The notes beneath the pieces were generated by a model, which saw only the letters and a list, made by a program, of their open reading frames with translations, made no database searches and had not been told where the DNA came from. A DNA stretch of 64,000 nt, taken from Lachnospiraceae bacterium P6A3. Its GTDB lineage: Bacteria > Bacillota > Clostridia > Lachnospirales > Lachnospiraceae. The stretch lies in contig KL370861.1 in assembly GCA_000702085.1 (NCBI GenBank), forward strand, positions 498,911 to 562,910, written 5' to 3'. Within the stretch, counting starts at the first letter, position 1; every line of letters starts with the position of its first letter. The translations under genes were made by a program, and so were the position numbers. Below, piece after piece: positions 8,920-55,191 of this stretch.

Positions 8920-9666
8920 ATGATGAAACTTGTACTCGTCAGACATGGCGAATCCGAATGGAACAAACTCAATCTTTTCACCGGCTGGACTGATGTTGAT
9001 CTGAGTGAAAAAGGACATGAAGAAGCAAAGCAGGGCGGAAAGACTCTGAAGGAAGAGGGTTATGATTTTGACGTAGCATATACTTCATACCTGAAGAGAG
9101 CTATCCATACTCTCGGACATATTCTTGATGAGATGGATCGTAACTGGATCCCCGTACATAAATGCTGGCAGCTTAATGAGCGCCATTACGGTGCACTTCA
9201 GGGACTTAACAAATCTGAGACTGCAGAAAAGTACGGAGAAGAGCAGGTTAAGATCTGGAGAAGATCTTTTGATGTAACACCTCCCGCGCTTGAAGAGTCC
9301 GATGAGAGAGCGCCTCAGAATCAGGTGATGTTCAGAGATGTTGATAAGAAGAATCTTCCTCTTACCGAGAGCCTCGAGATCACCATCGAGCGTGTTGTTC
9401 CTTTCTTCAATGAAGTTATTAAGCCTGACATGAAGGCGGGAAAGAGAGTCATCATCGCAGCTCACGGTAATTCACTCAGAGCACTTGTAAAGTATTTCGA
9501 TGATCTTACTCCCGACGAAATTCTGGGTGTAAATATTCCTACCGGTGTGCCTCTTGTATATGAGTTTGATGATAACTTCAAAGTTATTAAGCATTATTAT
9601 CTCGGAGATCAGGAAGCTCTTAAAGCCAAGATGGAAGCAGTTGCAAACCAGGGCAAAGCTAAGTGA
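8920..9666 (+). CDS. gpmA: 2,3-bisphosphoglycerate-dependent phosphoglycerate mutase
   Basis: 248 residues, the normal length for the cofactor-dependent enzyme. It interconverts 3- and 2-phosphoglycerate through a phosphohistidine: [10 protein letters not shown] at the N-terminus holds the catalytic His, [13 protein letters not shown] and [14 protein letters not shown] are family signatures, and [16 protein letters not shown] has the second His. AAGGAG sits 8 nt before the start. Unlike gap, pgk and tpiA at 48-51 kb it stands alone, and its promoter carries two copies of the operator found at the ZIP transporter. That suggests metal-dependent control of a metal-independent isozyme (inference). 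Confidence 0.97.
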
Positions 9667-9703
9667 TCTTTTTCACGAAAATAATATAAAGAATTTCGAG
9701 ATC

Positions 9704-9733
9704 AGCTTCCGGAAGAGGCGGATGCTCTTTTTT
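9704..9733 (+). terminator. Intrinsic terminator after gpmA
   Basis: AGCTTCCG (9704-9711) and CGGATGCT (9719-9726) pair with one mismatch around a 7-nt loop, followed by a T tract. Confidence 0.7.
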
Positions 9734-9805
9734 ATAATACTATATATCAAATTGATATACATCGATACAAATAAGGTATTATTTATATAGCCTTTATAGG
9801 GGTTA

Positions 9806-10723
9806 TTATAAAGACGGATCTATTTGGTTGAAAAGGAATTCTTCGAAGGCCAGAGCATTTTTCTTATCTTTGGTATTTCGGATAAATGCCAGATACCTGA
9901 CAGGTAATTCTTCCTTTGTCTTTATCCGGAAAAGTTTGCCCTGCGCTATTGCTTCCTCCGCATCTTCCGGATGAATGAAGGCTATACCCTGATTTTCAAC
10001 AGTGTAGATCATGACCTGGTCCATGTTTATTGTTTCGATAGCAGGTTTATATTCCAGACCGTGCTCTGCAAAGAAGTGTTTGTAGAAGTCGTATGTTTCG
10101 GATTTGTTTTTTGTTCCGACCAGAGGATGTTCGTTAATTGCTGACAATGAAAGTTTTTTTCCCTTGAGATCCGAGAATGCATTGCCTGCTACAACGATGT
10201 CCTTGTGAGATCTGATGCATCTTTTTTTGTAATTATGTTTTGTAATGCTCTCGTCGAAGGGAGTAGTGATAAATGCAATATCCATAAGGTTATCTCCAAC
10301 TGCCGGAGCCAGTGCGGTAGTGGTATCGTGTTTTATCTCGATTCGGACATCCGGGAATTTATCCCTGAATTGTTTCATTACGGGAACGATAATATCCTTG
10401 AATGAACTTTGGGTAAGGTCTGCGGATAAACCTATACTGATGGTTTTGTTTTCTTTTTCCGTAAGGGCTTTGACTCCGATTTCTCCGGCTGTCAGATGCT
10501 TAAAAGCAGCTTCGACGTGGGAATAGAGTTCCTCACCTTCGTCGGTGAGAGTTACTCCTGAGGATGAACGGTTGAAGAGTTTGCAGCCCAGCTGGGATTC
10601 CAGATTGGCGATGGATCGGGATATATTGGGCTGGCTGTTTGACAGGATTGCCGCCGCCTTGTTGAAACTGCGGTAGGTGGCTACGTAATAGAATAATCTG
10701 TAGTAATCATAGGACACTGACAT
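9806..10723 (-). CDS. LysR family transcriptional regulator
   Basis: 305 residues. Residues 1-65 form the winged helix-turn-helix (YRSFNKAAAILSNSQPNISRSIANLE... with the LysR-typical LFNRSSSGVTLTDEG wing). Residues 90-300 form a periplasmic-binding-like effector domain. The start is set by AAGGAGG just upstream. It is divergent from the chemotaxis receptor, with 122 nt between the starts, so it may control that gene or itself; no T-N11-A site was pinned down. The inducer is unknown. Confidence 0.92.
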   Translation of the reverse strand: MSVSYDYYRLFYYVATYRSFNKAAAILSNSQPNISRSIANLESQLGCKLFNRSSSGVTLTDEGEELYSHVEAAFKHLTAGEIGVKALTEKENKTISIGLSADLTQSSFKDIIVPVMKQFRDKFPDVRIEIKHDTTTALAPAVGDNLMDIAFITTPFDESITKHNYKKRCIRSHKDIVVAGNAFSDLKGKKLSLSAINEHPLVGTKNKSETYDFYKHFFAEHGLEYKPAIETINMDQVMIYTVENQGIAFIHPEDAEEAIAQGKLFRIKTKEELPVRYLAFIRNTKDKKNALAFEEFLFNQIDPSL

Positions 10724-29291: not shown

Positions 29292-29384
29292 ATGGAAATC
29301 AACGACATTATTAAAGTGTATCTGAATCCGTTTTTTAATAATTTTGAAGAGATTCATGCACTGAGGCTAATAAAATGCCGGTGA
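29292..29384 (+). CDS. Possible 30-residue peptide ending inside the first array palindrome
   Basis: ATG 29292 follows the phosphoesterase stop by 3 nt and runs 30 codons (starts MEINDIIKVYLNPFFNN) to a TGA in the loop of the first hairpin of the repeat array. It has no Shine-Dalgarno sequence and could be a remnant interrupted by the array or chance. Confidence 0.22.
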   Translation: MEINDIIKVYLNPFFNNFEEIHALRLIKCR

Positions 29385-29912
29385 CCGGCGTCTTATTAGC
29401 CTTTTTTATACATCTATGCGTCGAAATCCGGCGCGCGGGCTAATAAATCCTCAGAAACCAAATGATTATTAGCCACTGCTTCAAATCAGAGTCTTGAAAT
29501 CCGCATCCGAGGCTAATAAATCCTCAGAAACCAAATGATTATTAGCCATTGCTTCGAATCAGAGTCTTAAAATCCGCATCCGAGGCTAATATTTCCTCAG
29601 AAACCAAATGATTATTAGCCACTGCCTCAAAAGTGAGCATGGTCCTCGAACTATTTGGCTATAAAATCAGCCTGAAACCGGATTATTATAGCCCTTTTCC
29701 CTTGACTGCCCATTGATTTCCGGCTTATTGGCTATAATAATCGTCGAAACTACTTCTTTTATAGCCGCGCTCGTCCCAATGCCCATTGATTTCCGACTTA
29801 TGGGCGATAATAAGCGCCTAAACTCAAGCTTTTATAGCCCTACTTGCAAGACGGCCCTGCAAAATCCCGCTAAAAGGCTATAATCTCCTCAGAAACTTCC
29901 AATATTATAGCC
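29365..29912. repeat. Array of eight 37-nt palindromic repeats with exact 73-nt period
   Basis: Units start at 29365, 29438, 29511, 29584, 29657, 29730, 29803 and 29876, each 37 nt, separated by exactly 36 nt. Units 1-4 have arms GGCTAATAA/TTATTAGCC; units 5-8 have GGCTATAA-type/TTATAGCC, and the changes are compensated across the stem. Most loops share a central CTCAGAAAC-like core. The 36-nt linkers are also related (GAAATCCG or GATTTCCG at linker positions 22-29). Unit 1 has an extra inner GCCGG/CCGGC stem and a following T6, so it also looks like an intrinsic terminator. The 772-nt gap 29289-30060 holds nothing else except the ychF promoter region. Confidence 0.92.
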
Positions 29913-30060: not shown

Positions 30061-31158
30061 ATGAAACTAGGAATCGTCGGTCTTCCTAATGTAGGAAAGA
30101 GTACACTTTTTAATTCAATCACAAAGGCAGGAGCGCAGGCTGCGAACTTCCCCTTTTGTACCATTGATCCCAACGTAGGAGTTGTAGCCGTTCCCGATGA
30201 GAGAATCGAGAAGCTTGGTAAGCTCTATAACACCAAGAAGGTTACTCCCGCAACCATAGAGTTCGTTGATATCGCAGGACTTGTAAAGGGCGCTTCAAAG
30301 GGCGAAGGACTCGGAAACCAGTTCCTTGCAAATATCCGTGAAGTAGATGCAATCGTTCACGTTGTAAGATGCTTTGACGATGACAACGTTATCCATGTAG
30401 ACGGAAGCGTTGATTCCATAAGAGATATCGAGACAATTAATCTCGAACTCATCTTCGCAGATCTTGAAGTTCTCGAAAAGCGTATTGCCAAGACTGCAAA
30501 GACTGCGAGAATGGACAAGACAGCTGCCAAGGAACTTGACCTGCTTGAGAGATTCAAGGCTCATCTTGAGGCAAATAACGCGGCAAGAACTCTTGTTACC
30601 GAGGATGAGGATGAGATCAAGTATCGTAAGGAGTTCAACCTTCTCACCGACAAGCCTGTTATCTACGCGGCAAATGTAGAAGACGGCGACCTTGCCGATG
30701 ACGGCGCTAACAACGAGAACGTAAAGAAGGTTCGTGCGTTTGCAGCTGAGGAAGGTTCCGAAGTATTTGTAATCTCCGCCAGAACCGAGGAAGAGATTTC
30801 CGAACTCGATGAGGAGGAAAAGAAAGAATTCCTCGACGCTCTCGGACTTAAAGAGTCGGGACTTGAGAAGCTTGTAAGAGCAAGCTATGACCTCCTCGGA
30901 CTGATGAGCTTCCTTACCGCAGGAGAGGATGAGTGCCGCGCATGGACCATCAAGAAGGGTACCAAGGCACCTCAGGCTGCAGGAAAGATCCACACCGATT
31001 TCGAGCGCGGATTCATCAAGGCGGAAGTTATCAATTATCAGGATCTTCTCGATAACGGCTCAATCGCTGCCGCAAAAGAAAAAGGTATCGTCCGTATCGA
31101 AGGCAAAGAGTATGTTGTACAGGACGGAGACGTTATCCTGTTCAGGTTTAATGTATGA
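30061..31158 (+). CDS. ychF: YchF/OLA1 family P-loop ATPase
   Basis: 365 residues, normal length. [12 protein letters not shown] is the P-loop, [10 protein letters not shown] the switch I region, [10 protein letters not shown] the G3 motif, and the N-terminal domain is interrupted by a coiled-coil insertion (about 125-200). The C-terminal TGS-like domain ends [28 protein letters not shown]. YchF proteins bind the ribosome, prefer ATP to GTP and affect stress responses. AAGGAG lies 12 nt before the start, a rather long spacing. The stop overlaps the lgt start (ATGA). Confidence 0.97.
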
Positions 31159-53676: not shown

Positions 53677-55191
53677 ATGGATGAATTAATGGTTGCTGTT
53701 GTTATCGGAGTGATTGTGGCGATCTTGCTGATCATCATATTCGTTACCGGTTACGTAAAGGCTTCGACCGATGAGGCTTTCATCATCACCGGTCTTCACA
53801 AGGAGCCCAGATATCTGATAGGACGTGCCGGAATCAAGATCCCTTTCTTCGAAAAGAAAGACGTCTTGAAGCTCCAGCTGATTCCTATCGATGTTAAGAC
53901 AAGTTCCGCAGTTCCCACTGCAGACTACATTAACATCATGGTTGATGCTACCGTTAACGTTCAGATCGGTCACACCCCTGAGCTCATCAAAAAGGCTTCC
54001 AAGAACTTCCTGAACAAAAAGCCCGAGTATATCGCAGCTGTAGCAAGAGAAGTTCTCGAAGGTAACGTCCGTGAGATCGTTGGTAAGATGCATCTCGAAG
54101 AGATGGTTTCCGACCGCCAGAAGTTCGCAGTTCTCGTAAAAGAGAATGCCGATCCCGATCTTGAGGCAATGGGTCTTGTTATCACCTCCTTCAATGTTCA
54201 GAATTTCGTTGATGACAATCACGTAATTGAGAACCTCGGTGTTGATAACGTTGTACGTATCCAGAAGGCTGCTGCTATTTCAAGAGCAGAGTCCGAAAGA
54301 GATATTAAGATTGCTCAGGCTCAGGCTGACAAGGCTGCAAACGAAGAGCAGGTAAAGGCACAGACCGAGATTGCTACCAAGCAGAACGAACTTGCTATTA
54401 AGCAGTCCGAACTGAAGCAGGAAGCTGATACCAAGCAGGCAGTTGCAGACGCAGCTTATGAGATTCAGCAAGAGGAACAGAGAAAGACCATCGAGGTCAC
54501 CAGAGCAAATGCAGACATCGCACGTCAGGAGAGAGAGACCGAACTCAAGCAGCGTGAAGCTGATGTTAAAGAGCAGGTCCTCAACGCTGAAGTCAGAAAG
54601 AAAGCAGATGCAGAGAAGTATCGTCGTCAGCAGGAAGCAGACGCAGCTCTTATCGAGAGACAGCGTGAGGCAGATGCTAAGAAGTACGAGCAGGAGAAAG
54701 CAGCTGAGGCTGTTAAGGCTCAGGCTGATGCAGCAGTTTATGCTAAGGAGAAGGAAGCTGCCGGTATTGCGGCCGTAGGACGTGCAGAGGCAGAAGCTAT
54801 CCAGGCAAAGGGTCTTGCAGAAGCTGAGGCAATGGAGAAGAAGGCAGAGGCATACGCTAAGTATAACAATGCCGCTATTACCGAGATGATCATCAAACAG
54901 CTCCCTGCTATCGCAAAAGAAGTTGCAGCTCCCATCGCATCTATCGACAAGGTTACCGTTATCGATTCAGGCAGCGGTGAGTCAGGTGTTGCATCCGTCG
55001 GCGGATATGCACCTGCAGTCATGGCTAAGGTTATCCAGTCCGTTAAGGAGACCACAGGTTTTGATCTTACCGAGGTTATGAAGGCTAATACTTATGATGC
55101 TAAGGTTACCAAGAACATCAATGTAACCGGCCTTGATGCAGAGATCGTAAAAGAGTCTGCAAAAGCTGTAAATAACTCTTCAGAAGAGTAA
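53677..55191 (+). CDS. Flotillin/SPFH family membrane protein
   Basis: 504 residues from ATG 53677 (AGAGAGG upstream). One N-terminal membrane segment (about 5-26), the SPFH/PHB domain (about 28-200: KASTDEAFIITGLHKEPR, GRAGIKIPFFEKKD), a long Ala/Glu/Gln-rich coiled coil (about 220-430), and a flotillin C-terminal region with PAIAKEVAAPIASIDKVTVI. It resembles FloT/YuaG, which scaffolds ordered membrane domains. The NfeD partner usually encoded beside it is absent. Expression appears controlled by the putative Mn riboswitch just upstream, which is unusual for this family. Confidence 0.95.
   Translation: MDELMVAVVIGVIVAILLIIIFVTGYVKASTDEAFIITGLHKEPRYLIGRAGIKIPFFEKKDVLKLQLIPIDVKTSSAVPTADYINIMVDATVNVQIGHTPELIKKASKNFLNKKPEYIAAVAREVLEGNVREIVGKMHLEEMVSDRQKFAVLVKENADPDLEAMGLVITSFNVQNFVDDNHVIENLGVDNVVRIQKAAAISRAESERDIKIAQAQADKAANEEQVKAQTEIATKQNELAIKQSELKQEADTKQAVADAAYEIQQEEQRKTIEVTRANADIARQERETELKQREADVKEQVLNAEVRKKADAEKYRRQQEADAALIERQREADAKKYEQEKAAEAVKAQADAAVYAKEKEAAGIAAVGRAEAEAIQAKGLAEAEAMEKKAEAYAKYNNAAITEMIIKQLPAIAKEVAAPIASIDKVTVIDSGSGESGVASVGGYAPAVMAKVIQSVKETTGFDLTEVMKANTYDAKVTKNINVTGLDAEIVKESAKAVNNSSEE

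Follow-up and report, generated by a model that had tools for sequence, protein, structure and literature searches.

Palindromic repeats between the genes of bacteria are usually taken to be either substrates of transposases or RNA hairpins. Among the described systems, the BIME-2/gyrase site of E. coli is the closest functional analogue of the arrays reported here. The gyrase motif of E. coli covers 130 bp. In its two 47-bp flanks, on either side of a 36-bp centre, GC content oscillates with a period of 10.75 bp, which was read as wrapping of the DNA on the C-terminal domains of GyrA, and gyrase cleavage was over-represented in BIME-2 (PMC6379681). REPINs are inverted pairs at a fixed distance of 71 bp, and their spacers pair with compensatory changes (PMC3116915). 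A 10-bp A/T periodicity and phased A-tracts form part of the background for prokaryotes (PMC3940949).

The window studied here is a stretch of 64,000 nucleotides from the gut bacterium Lachnospiraceae bacterium P6A3. It carries an array of palindromes that was found to belong to a chromosome-wide family of about 15 arrays and 99 units, as counted from pattern searches and the stretches around their matches, by which diverged units are missed. Searches of the open-licence literature gave no account of repeats of this kind.

Geometry and setting of the array

Eight palindromes at an exact 73-nt period had been predicted, composed of 37-nt units and 36-nt linkers without indels. The array at 29365-29912 has precisely this structure, with eight units, seven linkers and zero indels. 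Units 1 to 4, located at 29365-29401, 29438-29474, 29511-29547 and 29584-29620, carry class A arms (GGCTAATAA/TTATTAGCC), and units 5 to 8, located at 29657-29693, 29730-29766, 29803-29839 and 29876-29912, carry class B arms (GGCTATAA/TTATAGCC). Unit 3 has the same sequence as unit 2, whose interior is CCTCAGAAACC; the interior of unit 8 is CCTCAGAAAC. Arm mismatches were found in unit 4 (A9T, giving T-T at pair 9-29), unit 5 (A-A at pair 9-29) and unit 7 (T4G, giving G-A at pair 4-34). The change of stem pairs with complementarity kept is real, but it begins at unit 5 and not at unit 8 alone, as had been proposed.

A motif common to all linkers, which was also part of the original prediction, was not found. 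Linker 3 (29548-29583) is a near-copy of linker 2 (29475-29510), and linkers 5 (29694-29729) and 6 (29767-29802) have TGCCCATTGATTTCCG in common. Linker 1 (29402-29437) begins with a T-run directly after unit 1, linker 4 (29621-29656) separates the class A block from the class B block, and linker 7 lies at 29840-29875. Because the filler between the arms has diverged, Tandem Repeats Finder detected the array in parts only. Elsewhere in the window, the same program reported two copies of a 21-bp tandem repeat at 54371-54413.

Unit 1 had been taken for a terminator, and it does resemble an intrinsic one: it alone contains an extra interior stem, giving a long extended stem of 9+7 bp (-22.2 kcal/mol) followed by TTTTTT. 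The other units form mainly an 8-9 bp arm stem closing a long loop, and an extended hairpin was rejected as a general description because the interiors of most units do not pair. The proposal of an expanded terminator or REP-like element is thus matched by unit 1 and by the REP/BIME-like placement of the family, and not by the other units or by the defining features of the family.

Short motifs recur in the filler of several species. CCTCAGAAAC or its complement is frequent in interiors, including those at 29438-29620 of the window and those of many other units, and CCTCAGTTGC is recurrent in linkers. The strand of the interior motif matches the direction of transcription in most, not all, arrays of P6A3 (20 vs 8 units).

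Upstream of the array lies a calcineurin-like phosphoesterase gene (PF00149; 28311-29288, + strand), the 3' end of which is 77 nt from unit 1, and downstream lies a gene for a YchF-like GTPase (30061-31158, + strand) that starts 149 nt past unit 8. In genome G026, an orthologous array of five units is located upstream of ychF. In five other relatives, a tyrosine-integrase-like ORF was observed whose coding end lies directly upstream of ychF (L184 in G004, L186 in G007, L194 in G021, L198 in G019 and L200 in G013), as if integrating elements used the 5' end of this gene as an attachment site.

Dispersal of the family and symmetric change of the arms

The exact arm patterns that had been suggested for searching were both found to recur in the P6A3 genome. 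The class A pattern GGCTAATAA-N19-TTATTAGCC gave 20 matches and the class B pattern GGCTATAA-N21-TTATAGCC gave 44, vs 0 in the reversed control in each case, and the loose pattern GGCTA-N27-TAGCC gave 81 vs 15. A chance origin of the palindrome matches is excluded. When 324 kb of this genome was scanned for any tandem palindromes, the output was mostly the 73-nt family, and the same arm-agnostic scan detected no tandem palindromes in 400 kb of G027, which is closely related but lacks the family. In the 45 arrays collected from all carriers, neighbouring units were 73 nt apart in 136 cases, 74 nt in 14, 72 nt in 10 and 146 nt in one. Single units occur as well; copies also duplicate in tandem, and adjacent units are often near-identical. 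In L036, a masked run of N (about 9587-9880) precedes a two-unit array at 9974 and may hide more units.

All 15 arrays of P6A3 touch the 3' end of a gene, and none lies between divergent genes. Since only 16% of the intergenic gaps of at least 100 bp are divergent, this bias is weak when taken alone. The neighbours include recD2 and the genes for PNPase, ETF alpha, a GH10 glycosidase, FecCD/Peripla_BP_2 and an Orn/Lys/Arg decarboxylase, among others; they are unrelated, and no functional theme was found among the array-flanking genes. The FecCD/Peripla_BP_2 array is located between two same-strand genes of one transporter, inside an iron-transport operon.

Arrays with different numbers of units occupy orthologous positions in different species. 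As matched by gene sizes and order, arrays lie alongside the Orn/Lys/Arg decarboxylase gene in G015 and G028, and the recD2-adjacent array has an orthologue in G028 with reversed block order. In the orthologous arrays L033:9486-10251 and L045:9097-9498, which lie between recD2 and a rod-binding-protein gene, the blocks of the two classes stand in opposite orders. Replication polarity was considered as an explanation of the blocks, with A and B on opposite sides, yet block order ignores GC skew; the reversed order in the L033 and L045 orthologues contradicts it as well and was read as local duplication.

The family is distributed patchily, being carried by 6 of the 31 genomes of the genus. In a search of 397 Lachnospiraceae genomes and another of 392 genomes of the order, arrays were detected in at least seven genera, all of them Lachnospiraceae; this count includes the genera of G424 (XBB2008 array) and G665 (RM5 array), and it comes from searches that depend on a GGCTA or GGCT core, which arm classes with another core would escape, in relatives whose genomes are mostly fragmentary. 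Named carriers include Lachnospiraceae bacteria XBB2008, RM5, RUG13451, RUG12797, UBA3772, RGIG8894 and RGIG10136. Outside the Lachnospiraceae, the order-wide search turned up nothing but isolated matches that lacked palindromic arms, and single matches in G574, G512, G573, G090 and G699, whose arms are not palindromic, were taken as chance. In a viral collection, 93 stretches had a single exact match to a 15-base pattern and no multi-match array was found, a level judged to be that of chance. Because the distribution is patchy and close relatives lack arrays, the function of the arrays, whatever its nature, is dispensable.

Between genera, the arms change symmetrically, through GGCTAATAA, GGCTATAA, GGCTGTAA, GGCTAAGAA, GGCTAAGGA and GGCTACCA, while the GGCTA core, the 37-nt span and the 73-nt period stay constant. 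The arms are GGCTAAGAA in G157, GGCTAAGGA and GGCTAAGAT in G141, GGCTACCA/TGGTAGCC in G206 and GGCTAATAA/TTGTTAGCC in G688. The units of G206 (L268:8883-9498 and L269:9000-9560) have a span of 37 or 38 nt and alternate as dimers of 147 nt (2 x 73.5). Among 20 representative units from different genera, arm pairs were standard in 93.9% of cells, and five pairs showed double changes, with 26 doubly changed cells; none of 500 shuffles matched the arms in percentage paired, doubly changed cells or covariation score. The predicted compensatory changes are real and hold between genera, but what they reveal is dyad symmetry and not RNA pairing as such.

A+T rhythm in phase with the helix

The helical repeat of DNA is about 10.43 bp, and 73 bp corresponds to seven turns. 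The original prediction had placed all units on one face of the DNA for this reason, which the exact seven-turn spacing strongly favours; beyond this, A+T content was found to be helix-phased across the whole unit. It shows seven evenly spaced peaks per 73 bp, in the interior as well as in the linker, at unit positions of about 8, 19, 30, 40, 50, 61 and 71. Base identity in the linkers amounts to only about 0.1 bit per position, and interiors and linkers keep no sequence and show no extra pairing; what they keep is the A+T rhythm.

Determined array by array and measured from the unit centre, the phases gather around zero, both for interiors (R = 0.87, 20 arrays) and for linkers (R = 0.84, 19 arrays), although residual homology between linkers of different arrays in P6A3 means that agreement within the genus may partly be shared descent. 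The array in the window has phases of -21 and -27 degrees. In 23 linkers less than 45% identical, the rhythm was undiminished, with an amplitude of 0.094, compared with a mean of 0.016 and a maximum of 0.052 in 500 shuffles. A Rayleigh test that takes lineages as independent showed the same phase for nine lineages at genus level (R = 0.95, p about 3e-4), the phase of some being based on one or two linkers, and this agreement persisted when five bases were dropped from each linker end. Linkers of different lineages agreed in A/T-vs-G/C class at 0.536, vs 0.504 when shuffled, and their identity given class agreement was 0.513 vs 0.501; otherwise they are almost unrelated.

Among copies within arrays, sites at A/T peaks were about half as changeable as the others (73/750 vs 180/924 and 182/852). 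A wedge model with assumed angles predicted strong curvature, the ratio of end-to-end distance to contour over 183 bp being 0.66 vs 0.88 for genomic DNA.

Possible roles and comparison with known systems

A rhythm of A+T content running through otherwise free filler points to double-stranded DNA bent or wrapped by protein and not to RNA. We consider it probable that the array serves as a platform of double-stranded DNA on which a protein complex with dyad symmetry sits and bends or wraps the DNA. A 37-bp palindrome and a 36-bp linker make exactly seven turns per step, so that every palindrome would offer the same face, and A/T-rich and G/C-rich patches alternating every 10.43 bp would curve the DNA in one direction along the array. 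The arms would provide symmetric recognition and the phased A/T bendability. Placement behind gene 3' ends, and in P6A3 never between divergent genes, suggests that the complex may act on local DNA topology or on the insulation of domains between transcription units. Of the alternatives named in the original prediction, the multi-site protein-binding array is thus strongly favoured by the seven-turn spacing and the helix-phased A+T content; protein binding itself, like wrapping and the topological role, is what we infer from these features of the sequence.

Among the proteins that leave a signature of this sort in DNA, gyrase is the best known. The same platform might be a strong gyrase site at the ends of transcription units, as in E. 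coli BIME-2. This special case is consistent with the helically periodic GC content of the E. coli motif and the enrichment of BIME-2 in cleavage (PMC6379681), as well as with the position of the arrays at gene 3' ends, including the one within the iron-transport operon. We nevertheless regard it as unlikely, given that gyrase is universal while the arrays are patchy, that gyrase is not known to recognise palindromic arms of 9 nt with a near-invariant sequence, and that the rhythm here is continuous at 10.43 bp, with no distinct central segment. A selfish element of the REP/REPIN or MITE kind, spread by a trans-acting transposase without host function, would account for dispersed, intergenic palindromes with lineage-specific arm classes, for single units and for tandem duplication, and REPINs are likewise inverted pairs at a fixed distance (71 bp; PMC3116915). 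However, the Y1/RAYT gene is absent from the carriers RM5 (G665, 100% complete) and XBB2008 (G424, 99%) and was not found in the carriers G007, G028 and G015; several non-carriers have such genes, and no array arms occur in the 18.7 kb searched around the Y1 gene of P6A3. A link to RAYT was rejected since its presence does not track the arrays, either in the genus or in six carriers of other genera. Moreover, REPIN spacers pair (PMC3116915), whereas array interiors do not, and helical phasing of unconserved filler would be unexpected in a hairpin substrate. This origin appears less likely still than a gyrase site.

If the arrays acted as a serial structured RNA, or as hairpins of single-stranded DNA, every unit would be a hairpin in the transcript. 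Across genera, 94% of the arm cells are complementary and double changes occur, the CCTCAGAA motif lies mainly on the coding strand (20 vs 8), and the fold of the complete array is better than that of shuffled sequences (z -4.65), the last of which is to be expected because any row of palindromes must fold in this way. Against this stand a loop fixed at 19-21 nt with pairs rarely gained, interior Watson-Crick pairing at or below expectation, and mispairs in the arms that show no preference for G-U when read in the direction of transcription (7 G-U, 10 A-C, 8 other); an RNA would also have no need of an A/T rhythm of 10.43 bp in its loops and linkers. Rfam gave no match up to E=1. The RNA alternative of the original prediction is accordingly disfavoured, and we consider it improbable. 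A neutral tandem satellite whose palindromes are maintained by template-switch correction is largely refuted and has very little probability left. Unit duplication does occur, as near-identical adjacent units indicate, and hairpin-mediated correction could maintain the matching of arms, but arms are conserved though the filler has turned over with hardly any indels, the phase is common to genera, A/T peaks change more slowly, and arrays persist at orthologous sites in different species.

With regard to the protein of the proposed DNA platform, a dedicated sequence-specific factor would fit near-invariant arms that change in step better than gyrase does. We suggest tentatively, as a possibility that is more doubtful than the platform itself, that a cognate wrapping protein co-evolving with the lineage-specific arms builds a regular nucleosome-like or solenoidal fibre on the seven-turn lattice at transcription-unit ends; the arrays would then represent a new class of element in bacterial chromosomes. 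What is conserved here is helix geometry (spacing, dyad symmetry and A/T rhythm), while the letters turn over. The arrays may thus offer a clean and testable signature, written in the sequence, for the wrapping of bacterial DNA and a substrate with which to find the wrapping protein; the arms changing in step between genera would be a natural experiment on the co-evolution of recognition and architecture. A role of this kind would bear on the question of what marks the topological boundary between one transcription unit and the next in a bacterial chromosome.

We regard the family as a new form of bacterial interspersed palindromic repeat, and there is a real chance of its being a new kind of architectural element. 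Like REPINs, its units have two inverted conserved ends at a fixed distance, fall into lineage-specific classes, and are dispersed between genes and clustered (PMC3116915); they differ in having no consistent Y1/RAYT gene, an unpaired spacer and helical A/T phasing. The regular 36/37 alternation of conserved and variable stretches recalls CRISPR arrays, but only the 8-9-nt arms are conserved, adjacent "spacers" often prove to be diverged versions of one another, and the arrays lie at many unrelated loci, with no cas genes among the annotated flanking genes. Nucleosome-positioning-type periodicity and phased A-tracts share the alternation of A/T and G/C at the helical repeat and the predicted curvature (PMC3940949), whereas in the present arrays, which are discrete, the rhythm is phase-locked to the lattice of palindromes and is conserved between genera without sequence conservation. 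BIME-2/REP elements likewise form palindromic arrays in intergenic DNA close to gene 3' ends, and the gyrase motif of E. coli has a GC content periodic near the helical repeat (10.75 bp, vs 10.43 bp phase-locked here); the present family is distinguished from BIME-2/REP by its strict 73-bp, seven-turn lattice, its near-invariant arms around a free interior that lacks REP-type pairing, and the different phylum of its hosts.
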